NCBI GenBank assembly: GCA_014730235.1
Contig: WJIO01000201.1
Location: forward strand, 1-8,763
Direction: 5' to 3'
Length of the DNA: 8,763 nt
Source: Candidatus Poribacteria bacterium
GTDB lineage: Bacteria; Poribacteria; DTPJ01; WJIO01
The position numbers were made by a program, and so were the translations under genes. Positions 1,415-8,763 of the stretch are shown here, piece by piece. Every line of letters begins with the position of its first letter. Position 1 is the first letter of the stretch. The notes beneath the pieces were generated by a model. That model ran no database searches. It was given only the letters and a program-made list of their open reading frames with translations, and was not told the origin of the DNA.

Positions 1415-1602
1415 ATACCCCCTTTTAAACCCTTGTGTTGCAAGGCTTTAGAAGCCCATTTCGCGTAACCTATGGTTTGTGATGCTAAAATTAACATTTG
1501 TTAATCCGTTTTCGGGTTATTTTTCACACTAAAAAGTACCATAAACCCTTGTGTGGTACTGGTGGACAAAATTAACGCGTAACCTATGCTGCATTTTGCA
1601 AC
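1415..1602 (-). promoter_or_regulatory. CRISPR leader, downstream copy
   Basis: This 188-bp non-coding segment is directly upstream (minus strand) of the two-repeat array. It is conserved with 7621-7808, while the sequence beyond the repeats differs, which is how two loci sharing a leader look. Read on the plus strand, it holds two imperfect units about 115 bp apart, each with AAACCCTTGTGT (1427-1438; 1543-1554) followed after 23 or 21 bases by CGCGTAACCTATG (1462-1474; 1576-1588). It also has a small hairpin (1444-1456) and a palindrome TTAACA-TT-TGTTAA (1491-1504). I could not fix a convincing -35/-10 pair. The role as leader and promoter is inferred from position and conservation. Confidence 0.7.
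1491..1504. promoter_or_regulatory. Conserved palindrome, possible operator (downstream leader)
   Basis: TTAACA-TT-TGTTAA is a 6-bp perfect inverted repeat around 2 bases. It is retained unchanged at 7697-7710 although bases on both sides differ between the leaders. A binding site for a dimeric regulator or architectural protein is possible. Short AT-rich palindromes also occur by chance. Confidence 0.35.
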
Positions 1603-1816: not shown

Positions 1817-3334
1817 TTAAAGCCCAATATATATCTGACCATGCAAAGCCATATTAAGTAGATTTTTAAATCTATCTTTTCCTATTGTGTTTTGTATAAC
1901 AACTTCAGTTTTGTTCTTGAATTCAGGCCATAAATTATCTGGAATAGGATTTGTTCCATGAGCCAGTATAGAGCGATTCCTTATATCCATAAGGCTTTCA
2001 CTACCACGCCGTCGCCGTCTTATACCTTCGTAAATCCTGGCAATATTTTCTCCTGCTATATCAAGAAGACCCATCTGATCGTCCAGGCCAAGCCTTTCAT
2101 TGGGTAGCTTTCTACGTTTTTTCTTTTCAAATTCAATGCCAAGATTTTTTATGTCCTTATTAATATTGGAGCAGAATGATTTATAATCAGGTTCCTTCGT
2201 ATCTTTTAGGCCCTTTTCAATAAGTTTTAAGGTTGCGGACATTTCCAAACATCTATATAGTCTTCCTACTGCATCGTCATATTTCTTTTGTTTTTCGCGA
2301 CGCAGCGCGCTTGAGAAGATGTCAACAAGTCTTAATTCATCAACGATGTTTTTGTTATCTCGCCATGTTTTATCCAGTTTCCTGAGATATTCCAAGTTTG
2401 CATTTATATTATCAGGTAAATACTGAGCCAGGGCCAGCCTTTGGAAATCGGCAACTATCCCTTCTAATTTCTCACTTAGTGGTGGTTTTGGTCTCTTATC
2501 TTCAGGTACAGCGCTGTGCATAAATGAATCCCAGTCCATATAAACTTTTACAAGTTCCTGGAGACAATTTACTTTTGTAAGAGTCGCTGCATCTCTGACT
2601 TTACGACTTAATTGGATACAGGTGTTAAAAGCGGCCTCATAGAGATGGCAATTAAATTGTTCCTGAACCAGCCCAAGCTCTGTATCACCGAAGAATTCAA
2701 ATGGATTTTCTATTATTCTAAGCCTTTCTGTAAAGGGAAATACAATACCACTTTCTTCAATGCTGTGTATGTATACCATCTGGAAACGATGGTAAAAAGC
2801 TGCAAGAGCCAGGGATGCAACCATTACCTTGCGTCCTCCAGTAGGGTCAATAAGGGTAATCTCTTTTTCCACATGGGAAATACGAGGTAAAGCCTGTTCT
2901 CTGATTACCCGGTAATTCTGACTTGCGTCATACTCAGTTATGAGTAATCTTGTAATTTCCACTTCTATATCATTGATATCCGGATCTGTCTCTATTTCCA
3001 GGGCTGTATCTGCAGAACCATCTGTATGTAAAAGGATTGCTTTTTGGGGTTTTAAGCAAAGTATACTGAGAATTATAGGCTCTTTGCTTCCCCCTACTGT
3101 CATAATCATATTACGGCATTGAAGCCTTTGGGACATGAATTTATTATGAGGGATTAGAGGAACATATTTCTTTTCCAATTCAAATACTTCTTTTAATAAA
3201 TCCCTTGCTTCTGTTCGTGCGCCAGCAGCTATAGCAATACTAAATCGTTCTGCTATATCTATTAGAGATTTTAGTTCCTTACCTTTGGTTATTTTTCTTA
3301 ACTGATTGATGGTTTCATTCATTCTCTCATCCAT
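1817..3334 (-). CDS. CARF-HEPN ribonuclease, Cas02710/TIGR02710 family, with N-terminal extension
   Basis: Second Cas02710 protein of the window (505 aa), probably a cyclic-oligoadenylate-dependent RNase. A helical, charged extension of about 74 residues comes before the CARF start (MIMTVGGSKEPI, 76-87). The CARF ligand motif is TGGRKVM (165-171). The HEPN RNase motif R-x6-H is R452 to H459 (RNRSILAHG). The segment KKYDDAVGRLYRCLEM (350-365) matches its paralogue at 41-1261, which is about 100 residues shorter and lacks the extension. A basic patch (RRRRR, 439-443) precedes the HEPN motif. The start ATG follows AAGGA with about 9 bases between, 14 bp after the cas6 stop, so it is the last gene of the operon. 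The N-terminal start is less certain: internal ATGs at codons 5, 67 and 76 exist, but the frame is coding-like throughout. Function inferred from family. Confidence 0.86.
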   Translation of the reverse strand: MDERMNETINQLRKITKGKELKSLIDIAERFSIAIAAGARTEARDLLKEVFELEKKYVPLIPHNKFMSQRLQCRNMIMTVGGSKEPIILSILCLKPQKAILLHTDGSADTALEIETDPDINDIEVEITRLLITEYDASQNYRVIREQALPRISHVEKEITLIDPTGGRKVMVASLALAAFYHRFQMVYIHSIEESGIVFPFTERLRIIENPFEFFGDTELGLVQEQFNCHLYEAAFNTCIQLSRKVRDAATLTKVNCLQELVKVYMDWDSFMHSAVPEDKRPKPPLSEKLEGIVADFQRLALAQYLPDNINANLEYLRKLDKTWRDNKNIVDELRLVDIFSSALRREKQKKYDDAVGRLYRCLEMSATLKLIEKGLKDTKEPDYKSFCSNINKDIKNLGIEFEKKKRRKLPNERLGLDDQMGLLDIAGENIARIYEGIRRRRRGSESLMDIRNRSILAHGTNPIPDNLWPEFKNKTEVVIQNTIGKDRFKNLLNMALHGQIYIGL

Positions 3335-3348
3335 AGCCTGCTGTCCTT

Positions 3349-4311
3349 TCAGGAAATGACGTATTTACCAAGCCCAAAGGCTGTTCCCTTGCCCACATGT
3401 ATATATTCGCCAATTAAAAGGAGAGGAATAAAATCCTGTAGAAATCCGGAAAAAGTTACTTTTCCTTTGAATCCACCCAGCATCATACGCATATTTTGAC
3501 GGGATGATGGTCTGGACCAATCCCTCCAGAATAATGCTTCATCAACTTTTTTAATTTTCTGTTGGGCTTGTGTGATCAGATAATTATAATCGAATTCCGG
3601 TTCATGGTTACAATGAAAATACGATAGTATTAATATCCGTCGGATCAACGCTCGTATAAGCATTTCAAAATCTATGGTATTCTGGAGTTTATCGGAAGAT
3701 TTAACGCGTGTTGGGGTTATAAATTCTAAATTTACTTCTTTAGATTTTTCAGCTAATTTAATTTCGCTAAACTTGTCCGCAGATAAAATGTTATTATCAG
3801 ATAGTTCCTTTGTATTTCCAGTATATATAACATGATAATTATCCTGATAATCCACGCTCTCTACTTTTTTCAGGAAACATCTCCCTCTGTAACCGTTAAT
3901 TCTTTTGCCTATCCCCCATTCTGCCAGAAGTTCAAAAGCGAGTATAAAATAGGGTACAAAATCAACTGAATATCCGATTAATAATAGTTGAAATACAATT
4001 TCGTCTCCTGGAATGTACCTGGTTTTTTCTTCTAAAGGTGGCTCCAATACAAAAGGATGTGGGGCAAATTCCTGGTTTTTCAAATATTTGCTGTCTTCAG
4101 GAATAGGGGTTTCAAAGATTTTAGAATAAGCGCAATTTGCCTTTAACATACAAGTATCACACTCAGCATTTTTCAAAACACAGGAGACTTTCCTGAGGGC
4201 AGCGCCTAATCCCCCACGCAATACGCTGCCTTTATATACAGGCATTAGAATATTCTCTTCGACAGCATATGTAAACCTGAGAAGCGACATTTTCAAATAC
4301 TCGAAATTCAT
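3349..4311 (-). CDS. cas6: Cas6 pre-crRNA processing endoribonuclease
   Basis: RAMP-fold RNase (320 aa) that cuts CRISPR transcripts within each repeat, in most type III systems 8 bases before the spacer. Visible marks are the N-terminal RAMP region with GSVLRGGLGAALRK (28-41), a cysteine cluster C44, C51, C54, C60 that could bind zinc, as in one Cas6 subfamily, and the C-terminal glycine-rich loop HVGKGTAFGLGKY (305-317). The catalytic histidine cannot be assigned from sequence alone. The start ATG overlaps the stop of the preceding CARF gene (ATGA), so the two are probably translationally coupled. The natural substrates within the window are the repeats at 1309-1414 and also the lone repeat in the 5' region of its own operon (7589-7620), which suggests possible self-regulation. 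Confidence 0.9.
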   Translation of the reverse strand: MNFEYLKMSLLRFTYAVEENILMPVYKGSVLRGGLGAALRKVSCVLKNAECDTCMLKANCAYSKIFETPIPEDSKYLKNQEFAPHPFVLEPPLEEKTRYIPGDEIVFQLLLIGYSVDFVPYFILAFELLAEWGIGKRINGYRGRCFLKKVESVDYQDNYHVIYTGNTKELSDNNILSADKFSEIKLAEKSKEVNLEFITPTRVKSSDKLQNTIDFEMLIRALIRRILILSYFHCNHEPEFDYNYLITQAQQKIKKVDEALFWRDWSRPSSRQNMRMMLGGFKGKVTFSGFLQDFIPLLLIGEYIHVGKGTAFGLGKYVIS

Positions 4312-5420
4312 ATTCTTACCCCTCTTGCAATCATTCGATTTGTCAGGTCTACAACTGCTGCCTGAACTTTTAGAGGATCATCTGTTGTAATGAAAACGTC
4401 AAATCTGGCTGTTTTTTCATCATTAGAGTATTGTCCCTTTATAAAATCGTCTCCATGTGAGGATTTCGTAAACCTATTCCTGACAGGTAGATTAGGGTTG
4501 TCATAAAAAACGTTAATTCTGGTAACATATTCAACTTCACATATCCATTCCAGATAGTTTTTCAGTCCACGAAATGGGCGGTGATCAAAAGATATTTTCT
4601 TTTCCTTTGGTTCCAGATTAGATGGAGGAGGAAGCTCAGGTCCCTGACCCCTTAGAAACCTGTCCAGGAAACCTTTGTAAAAGAGCTCACCCATAGCAGA
4701 AAGCATAGTCTCATCGTTTTCATAATATAGAAGAATATAGAGCTTAGGATGCAGTTCCTTTAGTATCTCATCGTTTGATGGTACAATGCCTCGTTCTCTT
4801 ATTTCGTGTAGCGCGGAATAATTATCCAACCAAAGTGAAAAATCAAAAGAGACTGGCATAGGTGGCATTTCTATAACTTCCGAAAACCGCTCAAACATAT
4901 AATAAACCGGCACTTCCAATACCTGACCTATTAGTCCTGCAAAGGATATCTGGGCTTTAAATCCACCGGTAGCATTTATAACTGGTTCATGTCCCTGATC
5001 TCGTTCTTTTTTAATTATATCCGCCGTTTCTCGCACAAGATTAAGAAGCCCGCGATTTCGGAAATCACTGAAGTTTTCATGGTGCAGTCCCTTTAGAATT
5101 TTTACGTAAACTTCGTTAAATTGAGCTTTATAATAGAGCTTTAATACTTCACCCACAAAAGAACCATCGTCAGTATTTGAAACCATAAAATAAAGTGCAT
5201 GTTTATCCTGTATTAAATTTTTCTCCAGTATAGAAGTTATTGAATTTACCTCCGCGCCACATTCACGACTACTGGAAGTAAGCTCTGACTTCATAAGTTT
5301 TGCTGTTGCTATAACATTTCGACTCTTTATTGCCGCTTTGATAGGTTCAGAACAGGAACTGCTGCGCTCAAGATTTGTGATCAGGGCAGTGCCTACTGTA
5401 CAAATTATCACATCTTTCAT
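4308..5420 (-). CDS. CARF protein, APE2256/TIGR02619-like, with unassigned C-terminal domain
   Basis: N-terminal CARF domain (about 1-195): it opens with VIICTVGTALITNL, and the ligand-loop motif is ATGGFKAQ (150-157), followed by the PPMPVSFDFSLW strand typical of this family. The same features, with GLLNLVRETAD-like helices, are found in the adjacent CARF-HD protein, so the N-terminal halves are paralogous. A linker with LSAMGELFYKGF (240-251) leads to a proline-rich stretch and a C-terminal domain (about 275-370), with HRPFRGLKNYL and a basic/histidine run RNRFTKSSHGD. This domain has no HEPN R-x4-6-H motif at the expected place and no clear PD-D/ExK motif. CARF-RelE toxin fusions are known and are one possibility, not shown here. 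It could be an effector or a ring nuclease. GAGGGAG lies 7 bases before the ATG, just after the CARF-HD stop (15-bp gap), so the genes form one operon. Confidence 0.8.
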   Translation of the reverse strand: MKDVIICTVGTALITNLERSSSCSEPIKAAIKSRNVIATAKLMKSELTSSSRECGAEVNSITSILEKNLIQDKHALYFMVSNTDDGSFVGEVLKLYYKAQFNEVYVKILKGLHHENFSDFRNRGLLNLVRETADIIKKERDQGHEPVINATGGFKAQISFAGLIGQVLEVPVYYMFERFSEVIEMPPMPVSFDFSLWLDNYSALHEIRERGIVPSNDEILKELHPKLYILLYYENDETMLSAMGELFYKGFLDRFLRGQGPELPPPSNLEPKEKKISFDHRPFRGLKNYLEWICEVEYVTRINVFYDNPNLPVRNRFTKSSHGDDFIKGQYSNDEKTARFDVFITTDDPLKVQAAVVDLTNRMIARGVRI

Positions 5421-5435
5421 AATAATACTCCCTCT

Positions 5436-7580
5436 TTAATCCAGGTCCAACTCGTAATCAATTGTCATATTATAATACTCAAACAGAATTGATTTTACCC
5501 TTTCATACTCATCCATCATATTATTTTTCAACTCTTCCAGATATTCTTTGTCCTTACTTGATCCTTTTATTATTACTACAAATTTATTCATACTGTCAGT
5601 AAGATTATGGGCTACAGAAACTTCCTTGATTTTGGCTGCCCTGGAAAAGTGGGCTTCCTGCTCTTTTTTAAAATCCAGACGATAGGAAACTTCTCTTCGT
5701 AGATCAACTGCCATTTGAATCATTTTTTGTTTATCAGGTTTGTCTATAGAATTGATTATATTGTTAACTGACTCACGATGATTCTGCATTTTACCTTTAA
5801 GCTTTTCTTTTTCTTCATTATCTTTGAATTCCCTTCGCTCTTTCTTTCTATATAATTCTCTGGCAGTTTCTACTTCTTTCTCCAATTCATTTCTTATTTG
5901 TGTAATACCAGTTATATCTGTTACAAGTGACAACAATTCTGTGGCATTTTCTTCTCTTTTGGTTTCAGTTCTGAGGTCTGCGGCTATTAACCCTAATTTC
6001 AATCTCTGTTCCTGATCTGTTCCTATACGGGATATCTGAATGTCACAGCTATCAATTATCCTGAAAATAGATGCTAACTTTAGCGCGCTTTCTGTAAATT
6101 CCTTACCATGGAAGAAAAGCTTTTCAGAACTCAGAGGAGCATAGCTTTTCTTCTTTGTTGGGAGTGAATAATCATTATATTCTTCTTCTCCATTTTTTAA
6201 GGGCATATCGCGTCGGTGGTAGAGACCAATAGTAGCAATAGCTTTCAACTCATCTTCCCAGTATTCCTTTATTATTTTGTGCGGATTTTGGTTTTCCTTC
6301 CAGATAAATGCAAGTTCTGGCAATAGATTATCTTCCCCTATTCTGAAATGATCAGGGTTGAGTCTTTCATACCCCAGTATATGATGCCAATTCCTTATCT
6401 CTGTAGGTAGAAGCGGTCTGCCGGGAAAACCTGGAAAAGCATTTAGTGAATGTCCGCAGTCATGGAGTAATATGACACATAACAGGACATAGACTTCCTC
6501 TGGGGACATGAAATCGGGATTATTTAAAAACATGGGTACCAGAAACATCTCAGCGAATTCAAAGAGATTGTGATGATGCTTAAGGGCGTGATCCACCATT
6601 TCAGGAACTTTATCACCGATCCAGATATACTCGCTGATCTCCTGTAAATACCGACCATATCTACTTTTTAGGTCTTCTTTCCGAAGATGGAATAAAAGGG
6701 ATCTGCCACCAGCCTGAAATTGAGACCAAACACTGGCATCTTTATACGCGCTATATAGTATTTCTCCGGCAGGTTTCCATACATAGGAGTCTTCGGCGTC
6801 ATTTAGCTGTATTAAATTCCTGATTCTATCATCCAGTATTTCGTAGAAAGGTTTTGCATTTATAACTGGCAGGTTAAGAATTAGCTCAATGCGTTCAGCA
6901 TTTTGTCGCCATAAATCAAAATCAAGGTTAATAGGCAATACTGGCAGGTCAATATTTTCCTGAAATTCCTCATGAAGGTAATATATTGGCCGTTGACATA
7001 ACATACCAGCCAGAGAACCATAAACTGAACCTGCCTTATAACCTCCGGTGGCAATAATAAATACTTCCTTTTCTTCCTGACGTGAGAGATCAGCTATTTT
7101 ATCAACTAAGTTTCTTAAACCCGTATCTTTAAACATTCTCTCATTCCGGGCTTTAAGACCATCAATTGGATGCAGATAGGTTTCATCCACAACATTATCT
7201 TTAAGAAATAGCTGTAATAATCGTCCGGAAAGCCATCCTGAATGAGAATCTGAGCATATAAGGTGGATCTGATCCTGATCCTGGTTTAGGGGATATTCCA
7301 GGTCAAAACGAGCCAAACTTGCTAACTCCGCCGAAAGGGCGCGGAAACCTTCAATGCCTGCTGGGTTATCCTGAATTACATTCCATTTTTCTTTCAAGAC
7401 TGATACTGCATAGAGAATGTTTTCATTATCCTCAAGTATCATCTTCTCTAAATTTTGCTGAAATGTTTCCAGCAAATCCAGATGATTCTTATCTAATAAT
7501 TTACGAAGCTCATTAGTAATGATACCCTTGGCTTCACTAAGTAATGATGTTCCTACTGTTACCACAATGGACTTATCCAT
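5436..7580 (-). CDS. CARF-HD domain fusion protein
   Basis: Large (714 aa) CARF protein. CARF domain, about 1-225: opening SIVVTVGTSLLSEAKG, ligand-loop motif IATGGYKAG (176-184), then LPVLPINLDFDLW. HD phosphohydrolase-type domain, about 325-520: candidate metal ligands are H331 or H335-H337, the HD pair H373-D374 (LLHDCGHS), H399-H400 (NWHHILGYERL), H455 (GLYHRRDMP) and D510 (FRIIDSCDI). After this comes a long charged helical, probably coiled-coil part (about 560-610) and a C-terminal part (about 620-714) with no recognised domain. The HD domain might cut nucleic acid, cut cyclic oligoadenylate, or act on nucleotides; sequence cannot tell. It is first in the operon. The start ATG lies 8 bp after a lone CRISPR repeat, whose AGAGGA (7596-7591) is the only visible ribosome binding site, 10 bases away. 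Fusions of CARF with HD have been noted in surveys of CARF proteins, but I know of no activity to assign. Confidence 0.85.
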   Translation of the reverse strand: MDKSIVVTVGTSLLSEAKGIITNELRKLLDKNHLDLLETFQQNLEKMILEDNENILYAVSVLKEKWNVIQDNPAGIEGFRALSAELASLARFDLEYPLNQDQDQIHLICSDSHSGWLSGRLLQLFLKDNVVDETYLHPIDGLKARNERMFKDTGLRNLVDKIADLSRQEEKEVFIIATGGYKAGSVYGSLAGMLCQRPIYYLHEEFQENIDLPVLPINLDFDLWRQNAERIELILNLPVINAKPFYEILDDRIRNLIQLNDAEDSYVWKPAGEILYSAYKDASVWSQFQAGGRSLLFHLRKEDLKSRYGRYLQEISEYIWIGDKVPEMVDHALKHHHNLFEFAEMFLVPMFLNNPDFMSPEEVYVLLCVILLHDCGHSLNAFPGFPGRPLLPTEIRNWHHILGYERLNPDHFRIGEDNLLPELAFIWKENQNPHKIIKEYWEDELKAIATIGLYHRRDMPLKNGEEEYNDYSLPTKKKSYAPLSSEKLFFHGKEFTESALKLASIFRIIDSCDIQISRIGTDQEQRLKLGLIAADLRTETKREENATELLSLVTDITGITQIRNELEKEVETARELYRKKERREFKDNEEKEKLKGKMQNHRESVNNIINSIDKPDKQKMIQMAVDLRREVSYRLDFKKEQEAHFSRAAKIKEVSVAHNLTDSMNKFVVIIKGSSKDKEYLEELKNNMMDEYERVKSILFEYYNMTIDYELDLD

Positions 7581-7588
7581 TTTAATAA

Positions 7589-7620
7589 AATCCTCTTCAA
7601 ATCGAGTCAGTCTTTCCTAC
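7589..7620 (-). CRISPR. Lone CRISPR repeat in the 5' region of the CARF-HD gene
   Basis: Identical over 32 bases to both repeats of the mini-array at 1309-1414 and preceded by the same leader, but with no spacer or second repeat: the coding sequence begins 8 bp after it. It may be the remnant of a collapsed array, or a leader-repeat unit retained for expression control. Its AGAGGA serves as the likely ribosome binding site. Confidence 0.75.
7591..7596 (-). promoter_or_regulatory. Ribosome binding site inside the CRISPR repeat
   Basis: AGAGGA on the minus strand lies within the lone repeat, 10 bases before the ATG at 7580. The spacing is at the long end of normal. No other purine-rich site lies between the repeat and the start codon (TTTTATTAAA). 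Confidence 0.5.
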
Positions 7621-7808
7621 AGACCCCATTTTAAACCCTTGTGTGACGGGGGTTTAGAACCCCATTTCGCGTAACCTATGGTTTGTGACATAAAAATTAA
7701 CATTTGTTAAGTCGTTTTCGGGTTATTTTTCACACTAAAAAGTACCATAAACCCTTGTGTGATACTGGTGGACAAGATTGCCGCGTAACCTATGTTGCAT
7801 TTTGCGAC
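7621..7808 (-). promoter_or_regulatory. CRISPR leader, upstream copy, likely 5' regulatory region of the CARF-HD operon
   Basis: Non-coding segment conserved with 1415-1602. It has the same two-unit build: AAACCCTTGTGT (plus strand) at 7633-7644 and 7749-7760, and CGCGTAACCTATG at 7668-7680 and 7782-7794, with the same 35- and 33-base offsets. A hairpin GGGGTT-TAG-AACCCC (7649-7663) replaces the GGCTT-TAG-AAGCC hairpin of the other copy. Since the CARF-HD gene follows directly, this leader probably supplies its promoter, unless the operon is read through from csm5. The exact promoter could not be fixed. Confidence 0.65.
7697..7710. promoter_or_regulatory. Conserved palindrome, possible operator (upstream leader)
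   Basis: Same TTAACA-TT-TGTTAA palindrome as at 1491-1504, unchanged while its immediate neighbours differ between the copies (for example the bases just after it). Confidence 0.35.
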
Positions 7809-7841: not shown

Positions 7842-8763
7842 TTAATTATGATTCACTTTTAACTCCATCCATCCCAACGGTAACTGGGCTTCAAGCTGAT
7901 TGCCAACTCTAGATACAGTTAGTCTACGGGACTTAGGAGCTTCGTCGTCTCGCCTGTCAGTAAATAAAAGATTCCTTAATCTTTTAGTAGAATCACGACC
8001 TAAAAGAAGATCTATTGTAGTTCCAAGCAATCCTGAACCCCAACCCACCCTAATTGAGGGACAGTATCCGTTATCGTAGAATTCCCATACTTTTTCAAGA
8101 GTTACATCTCTTGAGTCCTTTACCCATGCAAAAAAGTCCTCTTGCTCATCCCATTGGGCTTTACTGAATTCCTTTATCATATTAATAATATCATTCAGAT
8201 TTGCAAAGGGGATATTTTTATTATTTTCCTGAAAATATTTAAGTATATCCATATCAAGGCTTAATGTAAATTCCACATTAACTCCAGGTGGTATACATTC
8301 AACATTTAGTATTGTGCCATTCTTGTTATATGCGCTTCTACTGTTTGCGCCTCTTAAGCTCATAAGCATTACATCTTCCAATTTTAACCCTTTTGGACTG
8401 TTGATGCTATCAGATATTTTAAGGCATCTCAGGATATCTGTATGTGGACCATTTTGCTTTTGTTTTTGATTTAGGCTGTAACCCATAAAAATATCTTCGT
8501 TAATCTTCTTTGCAAAACTTTCCTTTATGCGATTTTTATCTCTCTCTCTTGGTCTTCGACGCTGGACATCGTTTAAGTTTTTATCTACATAACTGCAAAA
8601 ATCATCCAGTTTCTTATCATCATTTTTGATAATAGAATAAAGCATAGCAGTACGAATAGCGCCTTTAACAGCAGTTCCTGGAATAAAAGGTCTATACCGC
8701 CCATCCCTTATAAATGGCTTTGGATATCGGATTCGTCCTCCAGTAAAGGCTAACTCCATACGA
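7842..8763 (-). CDS. csm5: Csm5, type III-A effector complex RAMP subunit (partial, N-terminus outside window)
   Basis: RAMP protein at the crRNA 3' end of the Csm complex. Visible marks are the conserved RYRPFIPGTAVKGAIRTAML (21-40 counted from the first in-window Met), DILRCLKISDS (108-118), NVECIPPGVNVEF (152-164) typical of Csm5, and the glycine-rich loop RVGWGSGLLGTTID (237-250), with a GWMELKV end. The frame is open upstream of that Met to the window edge (an in-frame CGT codon precedes it), and about 307 codons are seen. Csm5 proteins are usually longer, with an N-terminal RAMP strand before the PFIPG motif, so the true start lies outside the window. It ends 221 bp before the lone repeat, with no clear terminator between, so read-through into the CARF-HD operon is possible. 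It identifies the system as type III-A; Cas10 and the other csm genes are probably beyond the edge. Confidence 0.88.
   Translation of the reverse strand, partial: RMELAFTGGRIRYPKPFIRDGRYRPFIPGTAVKGAIRTAMLYSIIKNDDKKLDDFCSYVDKNLNDVQRRRPRERDKNRIKESFAKKINEDIFMGYSLNQKQKQNGPHTDILRCLKISDSINSPKGLKLEDVMLMSLRGANSRSAYNKNGTILNVECIPPGVNVEFTLSLDMDILKYFQENNKNIPFANLNDIINMIKEFSKAQWDEQEDFFAWVKDSRDVTLEKVWEFYDNGYCPSIRVGWGSGLLGTTIDLLLGRDSTKRLRNLLFTDRRDDEAPKSRRLTVSRVGNQLEAQLPLGWMELKVNHN

Follow-up and report, generated by a model that had tools for sequence, protein, structure and literature searches.

Relation to described CRISPR repeat units

To our knowledge, the control of potent CARF effectors by type III CRISPR systems is little understood. 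Translation can be controlled by Csy4/Cas6 cut sites that are engineered into 5′ UTRs. Terminal repeats of CRISPR arrays are commonly degenerate at their 3′ end, recombination between repeats can shrink an array until a single terminal repeat is left, and both collapsed and refilled arrays have been reported for Legionella (PMC8047081). Solitary repeat units of phages act as RNA anti-CRISPRs (PMC10651486), and a small RNA is the product of these units as well as of CreTA (PMC9458426) and of the Cas6-matured s479 of H. volcanii (PMC8155600).

The unit described here (unit A) consists of a CRISPR leader and a lone repeat in front of a CARF-HD gene. It shares with the engineered 5′ UTRs a Cas6-family cut site near the ribosome-binding site, but its sequence is natural and its cutting is predicted. 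As in a collapsed zero-spacer array (PMC8047081), a leader is followed by a single repeat with an altered 3′ end; unlike such an array, unit A lies 8 nt before a CARF-effector gene, for which it would provide the Shine-Dalgarno (SD) site. The phage solitary repeat units (PMC10651486) are likewise stand-alone repeats after a probable promoter to which Cas6 is expected to bind, whereas unit A is located in a cas locus, has a full leader and is joined to an mRNA rather than forming a small phage RNA. CreTA (PMC9458426) and s479 (PMC8155600) are comparable as repeats outside arrays, beside cas genes and with a regulatory use (putative for unit A), but they make crRNA-like guides with a handle, while unit A has lost the handle and encodes no guide. 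The part of the literature that we searched contained no paper on Cas6 autoregulation via a 5′ UTR repeat or on a repeat serving as SD of a CARF/cas6 operon. We would class unit A as a probable collapsed CRISPR array at an unusual site, for which feedback by Cas6 is a possible, testable addition.

Gene content of the type III-A locus

The window, the whole stretch of DNA that was analysed, is the complete contig C128 (8,763 nt) of a 5.5-Mb draft genome in 451 contigs, and its main genes are all encoded on the minus strand. The csm5 gene (7842–8762; 306 aa, running to the contig end; PADLOC Csm5, 1.6e-32; Pfam RAMPs) is the final gene of a type III-A effector operon upstream of CARF7-HD (5436–7580; 714 aa; Pfam Cas_APE2256, 2e-24, and HD-CE, 3.6e-10; PADLOC CARF7-CARF_HD, 4.1e-32). 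The latter, hereafter CARF-HD, starts with an ATG at 7580 and is the first gene of an effector operon in which it is followed by CARF7-DUF2103 (4308–5420; 370 aa; Pfam and PADLOC), by cas6 (3349–4311; 320 aa; Pfam CRISPR_Cas6, 1.8e-20; PADLOC Cas6, 1.7e-96), whose 5′ end shares 4 nt with the gene before it, and by a csx1/csm6-like CARF-HEPN gene (1817–3334; 505 aa; Pfam and PADLOC). These four genes look like one operon because their intergenic spacing is 15, −4, and 14 nt, and the gene order bears out the claim of an initial annotation of this DNA that cas6 is third in the CARF-HD operon. A CARF gene after csm5 occupies the usual position of csm6. According to the coordinates, csm5 and CARF-HD are separated by ~41 nt once the leader and the repeat are subtracted, which is ordinary operon spacing. 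A second CARF-HEPN gene (csx1, 41–1261; 406 aa; ORF list, Pfam, PADLOC, and sequence) is located downstream of a CRISPR mini-array and has an SD of its own, GGAGG. The source genome is unusually CRISPR-rich and harbours seven cas6-family genes, all on short contigs.

Near the stop codon of the first csx1 gene, a 32-nt inverted repeat with 84% complementarity (1719–1814) might function as a terminator or represent a small mobile element. Apart from a meaningless chance hit to an miRNA below threshold, Rfam gave no match.

Two copies of the CRISPR leader

Positions 7589–7808 and 1383–1602 share a 220-nt block with 91% identity, in which a leader is followed by a repeat. Leader A (7621–7808, minus strand; 188 nt) is complete, as compared with three other leaders, and since it directly adjoins the lone repeat A (7584–7620, minus strand) on its upstream side, the two are regarded as one leader-repeat unit. 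Leader B (1415–1602, minus strand), recognised by comparison with leader A, precedes the mini-array, which on the same strand comprises the full 37-nt repeat R1 (1378–1414; GTAGGAAAGACTGACTCGATTTGAAGAGGATTGGAAC, handle ATTGGAAC), a sole spacer of 37 nt (1341–1377), and the terminal repeat R2 (1304–1340), which is degenerate past nucleotide 32 of 37. Leaders A and B are identical at 168 of 188 positions; their 20 differences are clustered and the longest difference-free run is 49 nt. Sister arrays on contigs C422 and C372 have leaders that are 68–72% identical to the window leader, each with 63 differences to leader A, and all four leaders have the same 5′ boundary. Unique changes number seven in leader A vs four in leader B, an excess that is not significant. 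Both window leaders contain the module CATAGGTTACGCG ... CACAAGGGTTTA twice, and it is partly retained in the C422 and C372 leaders; these modules are possible protein-binding sites.

The mini-array spacer carries a strong intrinsic-terminator-like hairpin (stem 1374–1358 in a terminator scan) followed by a T-run (GGGAGCCATAAGCTCCC + TTTTTTCTTTTGTTTTT, minus strand), and the mini-array would therefore terminate its own transcript ahead of R2 and csx1. The spacer had no target in viral contigs, no match elsewhere in its own genome at up to three mismatches over 24 nt, and no partial target in the window, where the best match was 21 of 37 nt.

Anatomy of the lone repeat

In a 37-nt frame, nucleotides 1–32 of repeat A (7620–7589) match the mini-array repeats (1414–1378 and 1340–1309) without a difference, reaching 3 nt beyond the expected Cas6 cut site, while the last five nucleotides are degenerate, with TTATT in place of GGAAC (one of five matching). 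The 33 nt at 7589–7621 are identical to 1309–1341 and 1383–1415, far above chance, and the repeat is present three times in the whole 5.5-Mb genome when up to three mismatches are allowed. As first noted in the initial annotation, a CRISPR repeat thus abuts CARF-HD, with the homology ending 8 nt (7581–7588) before the ATG. The homology of R2 stops at the same nucleotide (32 of 37).

Cas6 of type I and III systems leaves an 8-nt handle derived from the 3′ end of the repeat, and the cut site was placed by this rule after alignment of repeat A to the full repeat R1 (1414–1378), which reads GTAGGAAAGACTGACTCGATTTGAAGAGG^ATTGGAAC with the cut marked by a caret. The alignment agrees with the previously proposed cut at 7592/7591, in the interval from SD to ATG; the minus-strand junction reads GACTCGATTTGAAGAGG up to the expected cut and ATTTTATTAAA-ATG after it. 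A weak hairpin (7593–7606, minus strand; fold and comparison) with the arms CTC (7606–7604) and GAG (7595–7593) and an 8-nt loop precedes the cut, which is expected one base beyond the 3′ arm. The repeat of the sister arrays on C422 and C372 is GTTxGAAxAGTAGACCCGACTTCAAGGGG^ATTGAAAC, and since CTC/GAG is replaced by CCC/GGG in these repeats, the stem covaries. Repeat A has kept the features for Cas6, namely the CTC/GAG stem and the cut site GG^ATT, and because its sequence before the cut is unaltered, Cas6 would probably be able to bind or cut it; with seven cas6 genes in the genome, the cognate enzyme is an assumption.

AGAGGA (7591–7596, minus strand), inside repeat A, is indeed the sole SD-like site before CARF-HD, and it takes in the 3′ arm of the repeat stem. 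Its GAGG ends 11 nt upstream of the ATG; this SD spacing of 10–11 nt is the widest among the window genes but still usable, the remaining genes having their own SDs at 5–9 nt. As leader and repeat directly precede the effector operon, repeat A appears to double as a ribosome-binding site and, by its position, is probably the 5′ UTR and SD of CARF-HD. An SD-like tetramer is present in the 3′ part of 11 of 19 type III-like repeats vs 25% of random 17-mers, so that an SD in a repeat requires no special selection, and since type III repeats commonly have SD-like purine runs, an ATG beside a repeat will often gain an SD. A sigma-70 scan of leader A detected no consensus promoter on the coding strand, and the proposed promoter therefore rests on what CRISPR leaders do.

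Occurrence in related genomes

A search of the 84 phylum genomes and of plasmid and phage sequences found the leader in its own genome only, and the repeat core was detected neither in viral contigs nor in the genome contigs of 84,980 species genomes, where no CARF-HD relatives could be confirmed either. We surveyed 59 related CARF7 ORFs with their surroundings, for only part of which a start codon could be assigned, which makes the survey non-exhaustive. Three were preceded by an array in the same direction (L073, 24 nt; L079, 54 nt, with a last repeat that lacks the handle; L086, 180 nt), and none of the three has a repeat-borne SD. The search for lone leader-repeat units upstream of CARF genes, which had been proposed as a check on the initial annotation, thus yielded no further case with a repeat-borne SD among the 59 CARF7 ORFs. 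The order of array and CARF gene is recurrent but uncommon, and a borrowed SD was seen only in the window among the CARF7 genes surveyed. L073 was rejected as a parallel lone mini-array, since what looked like one is probably the distal part of an array of 18 repeats interrupted by a 1.4-kb ORF, and the CARF gene at L073 carries an SD of its own. This ORF (470 aa, L073 6362–7774) apparently lies inside the CRISPR array, just before the CARF7 gene, in a genome from outside the phylum of the window.

A probable collapsed array in front of CARF-HD

We consider it probable that the III-A system has, in unit A, a second CRISPR locus, which was cut down to zero spacers between csm5 and the CARF gene. 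A zero-spacer second locus is the simplest reading because repeat A breaks off like R2, leader A is intact, and removal of unit A would leave ~41 nt between csm5 and CARF-HD. The leader is complete and held in common with an active-type array (168/188 between A and B, with the same boundary in C422 and C372), and the repeat shows the 3′ degeneration of a terminal repeat (32/32 matches, then 1/5, with R2 stopping there too). Unit A may have originated by recombination between the leader-end repeat and a 3′-degenerate terminal repeat, i.e., by array collapse, or alternatively by duplication of a leader-repeat unit. With the terminal repeat 8 nt from the ATG, the promoter of the CARF-HD/CARF/cas6/csx1 operon would most likely be leader A, and the purine-rich 3′ arm of the repeat A hairpin would provide CARF-HD with its SD. 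We infer transcription from leader A and use of this SD; more tentatively, and as a side effect, Cas6 might bind the mRNA or cut it between SD and ATG, which would lower CARF-HD translation somewhat. A collapsed array accounts for all features seen, and regulation is not needed. Even so, it would mean that array turnover can place CRISPR promoters and Cas6 sites before effector genes, and if leader and repeat drive and gate the operon, there would be a directly testable coupling in cis between array transcription, the level of Cas6, and the dose of effectors.

Several points speak against a simple collapse. No relative with spacers at this site was found (83 other phylum genomes for the leader, 84,980 species genomes for the repeat core), so that the collapse event is deduced from its product. 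The repeat has 0/32 differences vs 20/188 in the leader, for which the probability is ~3–4% if the 20 differences are random, a figure that is weaker still because the leader differences cluster; this hints at constraint on the repeat, which is suggestive but weak. The draft state of the assembly (451 contigs) also leaves some room for a collapse introduced by the assembler.

Alternative interpretations

A less probable possibility is that leader and single repeat are retained as a site at which new spacers can enter. Incoming spacer-repeat units would be inserted upstream, and the SD-bearing repeat would stay before CARF-HD. This concerns present use and is compatible with a collapsed array. 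Leader A is complete and conserved, and in tested systems a lone repeat next to the leader can support naive adaptation (PMC8047081), but the altered repeat 3′ end is the joining point of the second integration strand, and unit A has no spacers.

That the repeat is a selected, Cas6-controlled 5′ UTR is unlikely on the present evidence. Cutting at 7592/7591 would strip the SD and leave an mRNA starting with AUUUUAUUAAAAUGG, with weaker CARF-HD translation, and would limit effector and Cas6; pre-crRNA that titrates Cas6 would relieve this. The cut site is exactly between the SD (7596–7591) and the ATG (7580), the hairpin is intact and covarying, cas6 is third in the same operon, and since part of the SD is formed by the 3′ arm of the hairpin, mere binding of Cas6 would block it. 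Without the handle, the cut mRNA would not be loaded as a crRNA, which fits both collapse and regulation. A hairpin that would enclose the AUG in the 5′ region after the cut is weak support and was rejected as not significant (10 of 200 shuffles fold equally well). Maturation of an ectopic-repeat RNA by Cas6 has a precedent in s479 of H. volcanii (PMC8155600). On the other side, no conserved case was found: the leader is absent from the 83 other phylum genomes, plasmids, and phages, the repeat core from 84,980 species genomes, and a repeat-borne SD from all 59 surveyed CARF7 genes, with start codons assigned in part. Moreover, every feature is equally that of a terminal repeat, and any of seven cas6 genes could be involved. 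Of the mechanism put forward in the initial annotation, the anatomy stands (repeat as 5′ UTR, SD inside it, cut between SD and ATG, cas6 third), whereas a selected Cas6 feedback tied to the pre-crRNA load gains no direct support; the search yielded no relative with this arrangement, and the 3′ end resembles that of an ordinary terminal repeat. We likewise regard it as doubtful that free Cas6, via the pre-crRNA load, sets the CARF effector level through a co-opted repeat; if it did, feedback would link effector dose to array transcription.

It is improbable that the genome contains a true array here whose first and last repeats were fused by a short-read assembler. The assembly is a draft in 451 contigs, several of its CRISPR contigs are short or end at arrays, and a hybrid repeat is the expected product of such a fusion, but usual reads and k-mers are longer than this 33-nt repeat, and the assembly resolved the mini-array nearby, which has two identical repeats.

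A crRNA-like regulatory RNA, comparable to CreA or to the degenerate mini-arrays found in type I and type V systems, is very improbable despite an ectopic degenerate repeat beside cas genes and a nearby mini-array with one odd spacer, given that neither a repeat nor a spacer follows repeat A downstream and that the unit B spacer matches the window at no more than 21/37 nt and the genome nowhere (≤3 mismatches, 24 nt).

Apart from the window, the sister arrays on C422 (L029, 916–1027) and C372 (L030, 782–894) are both cut off at an identical position in the second repeat, between GTAGACCCGAC and TGAGCTTATTCAG, by related, transposase-bearing DNA that is 80% identical, and their first spacers differ. 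This DNA is possibly an insertion sequence that targets CRISPR repeats.
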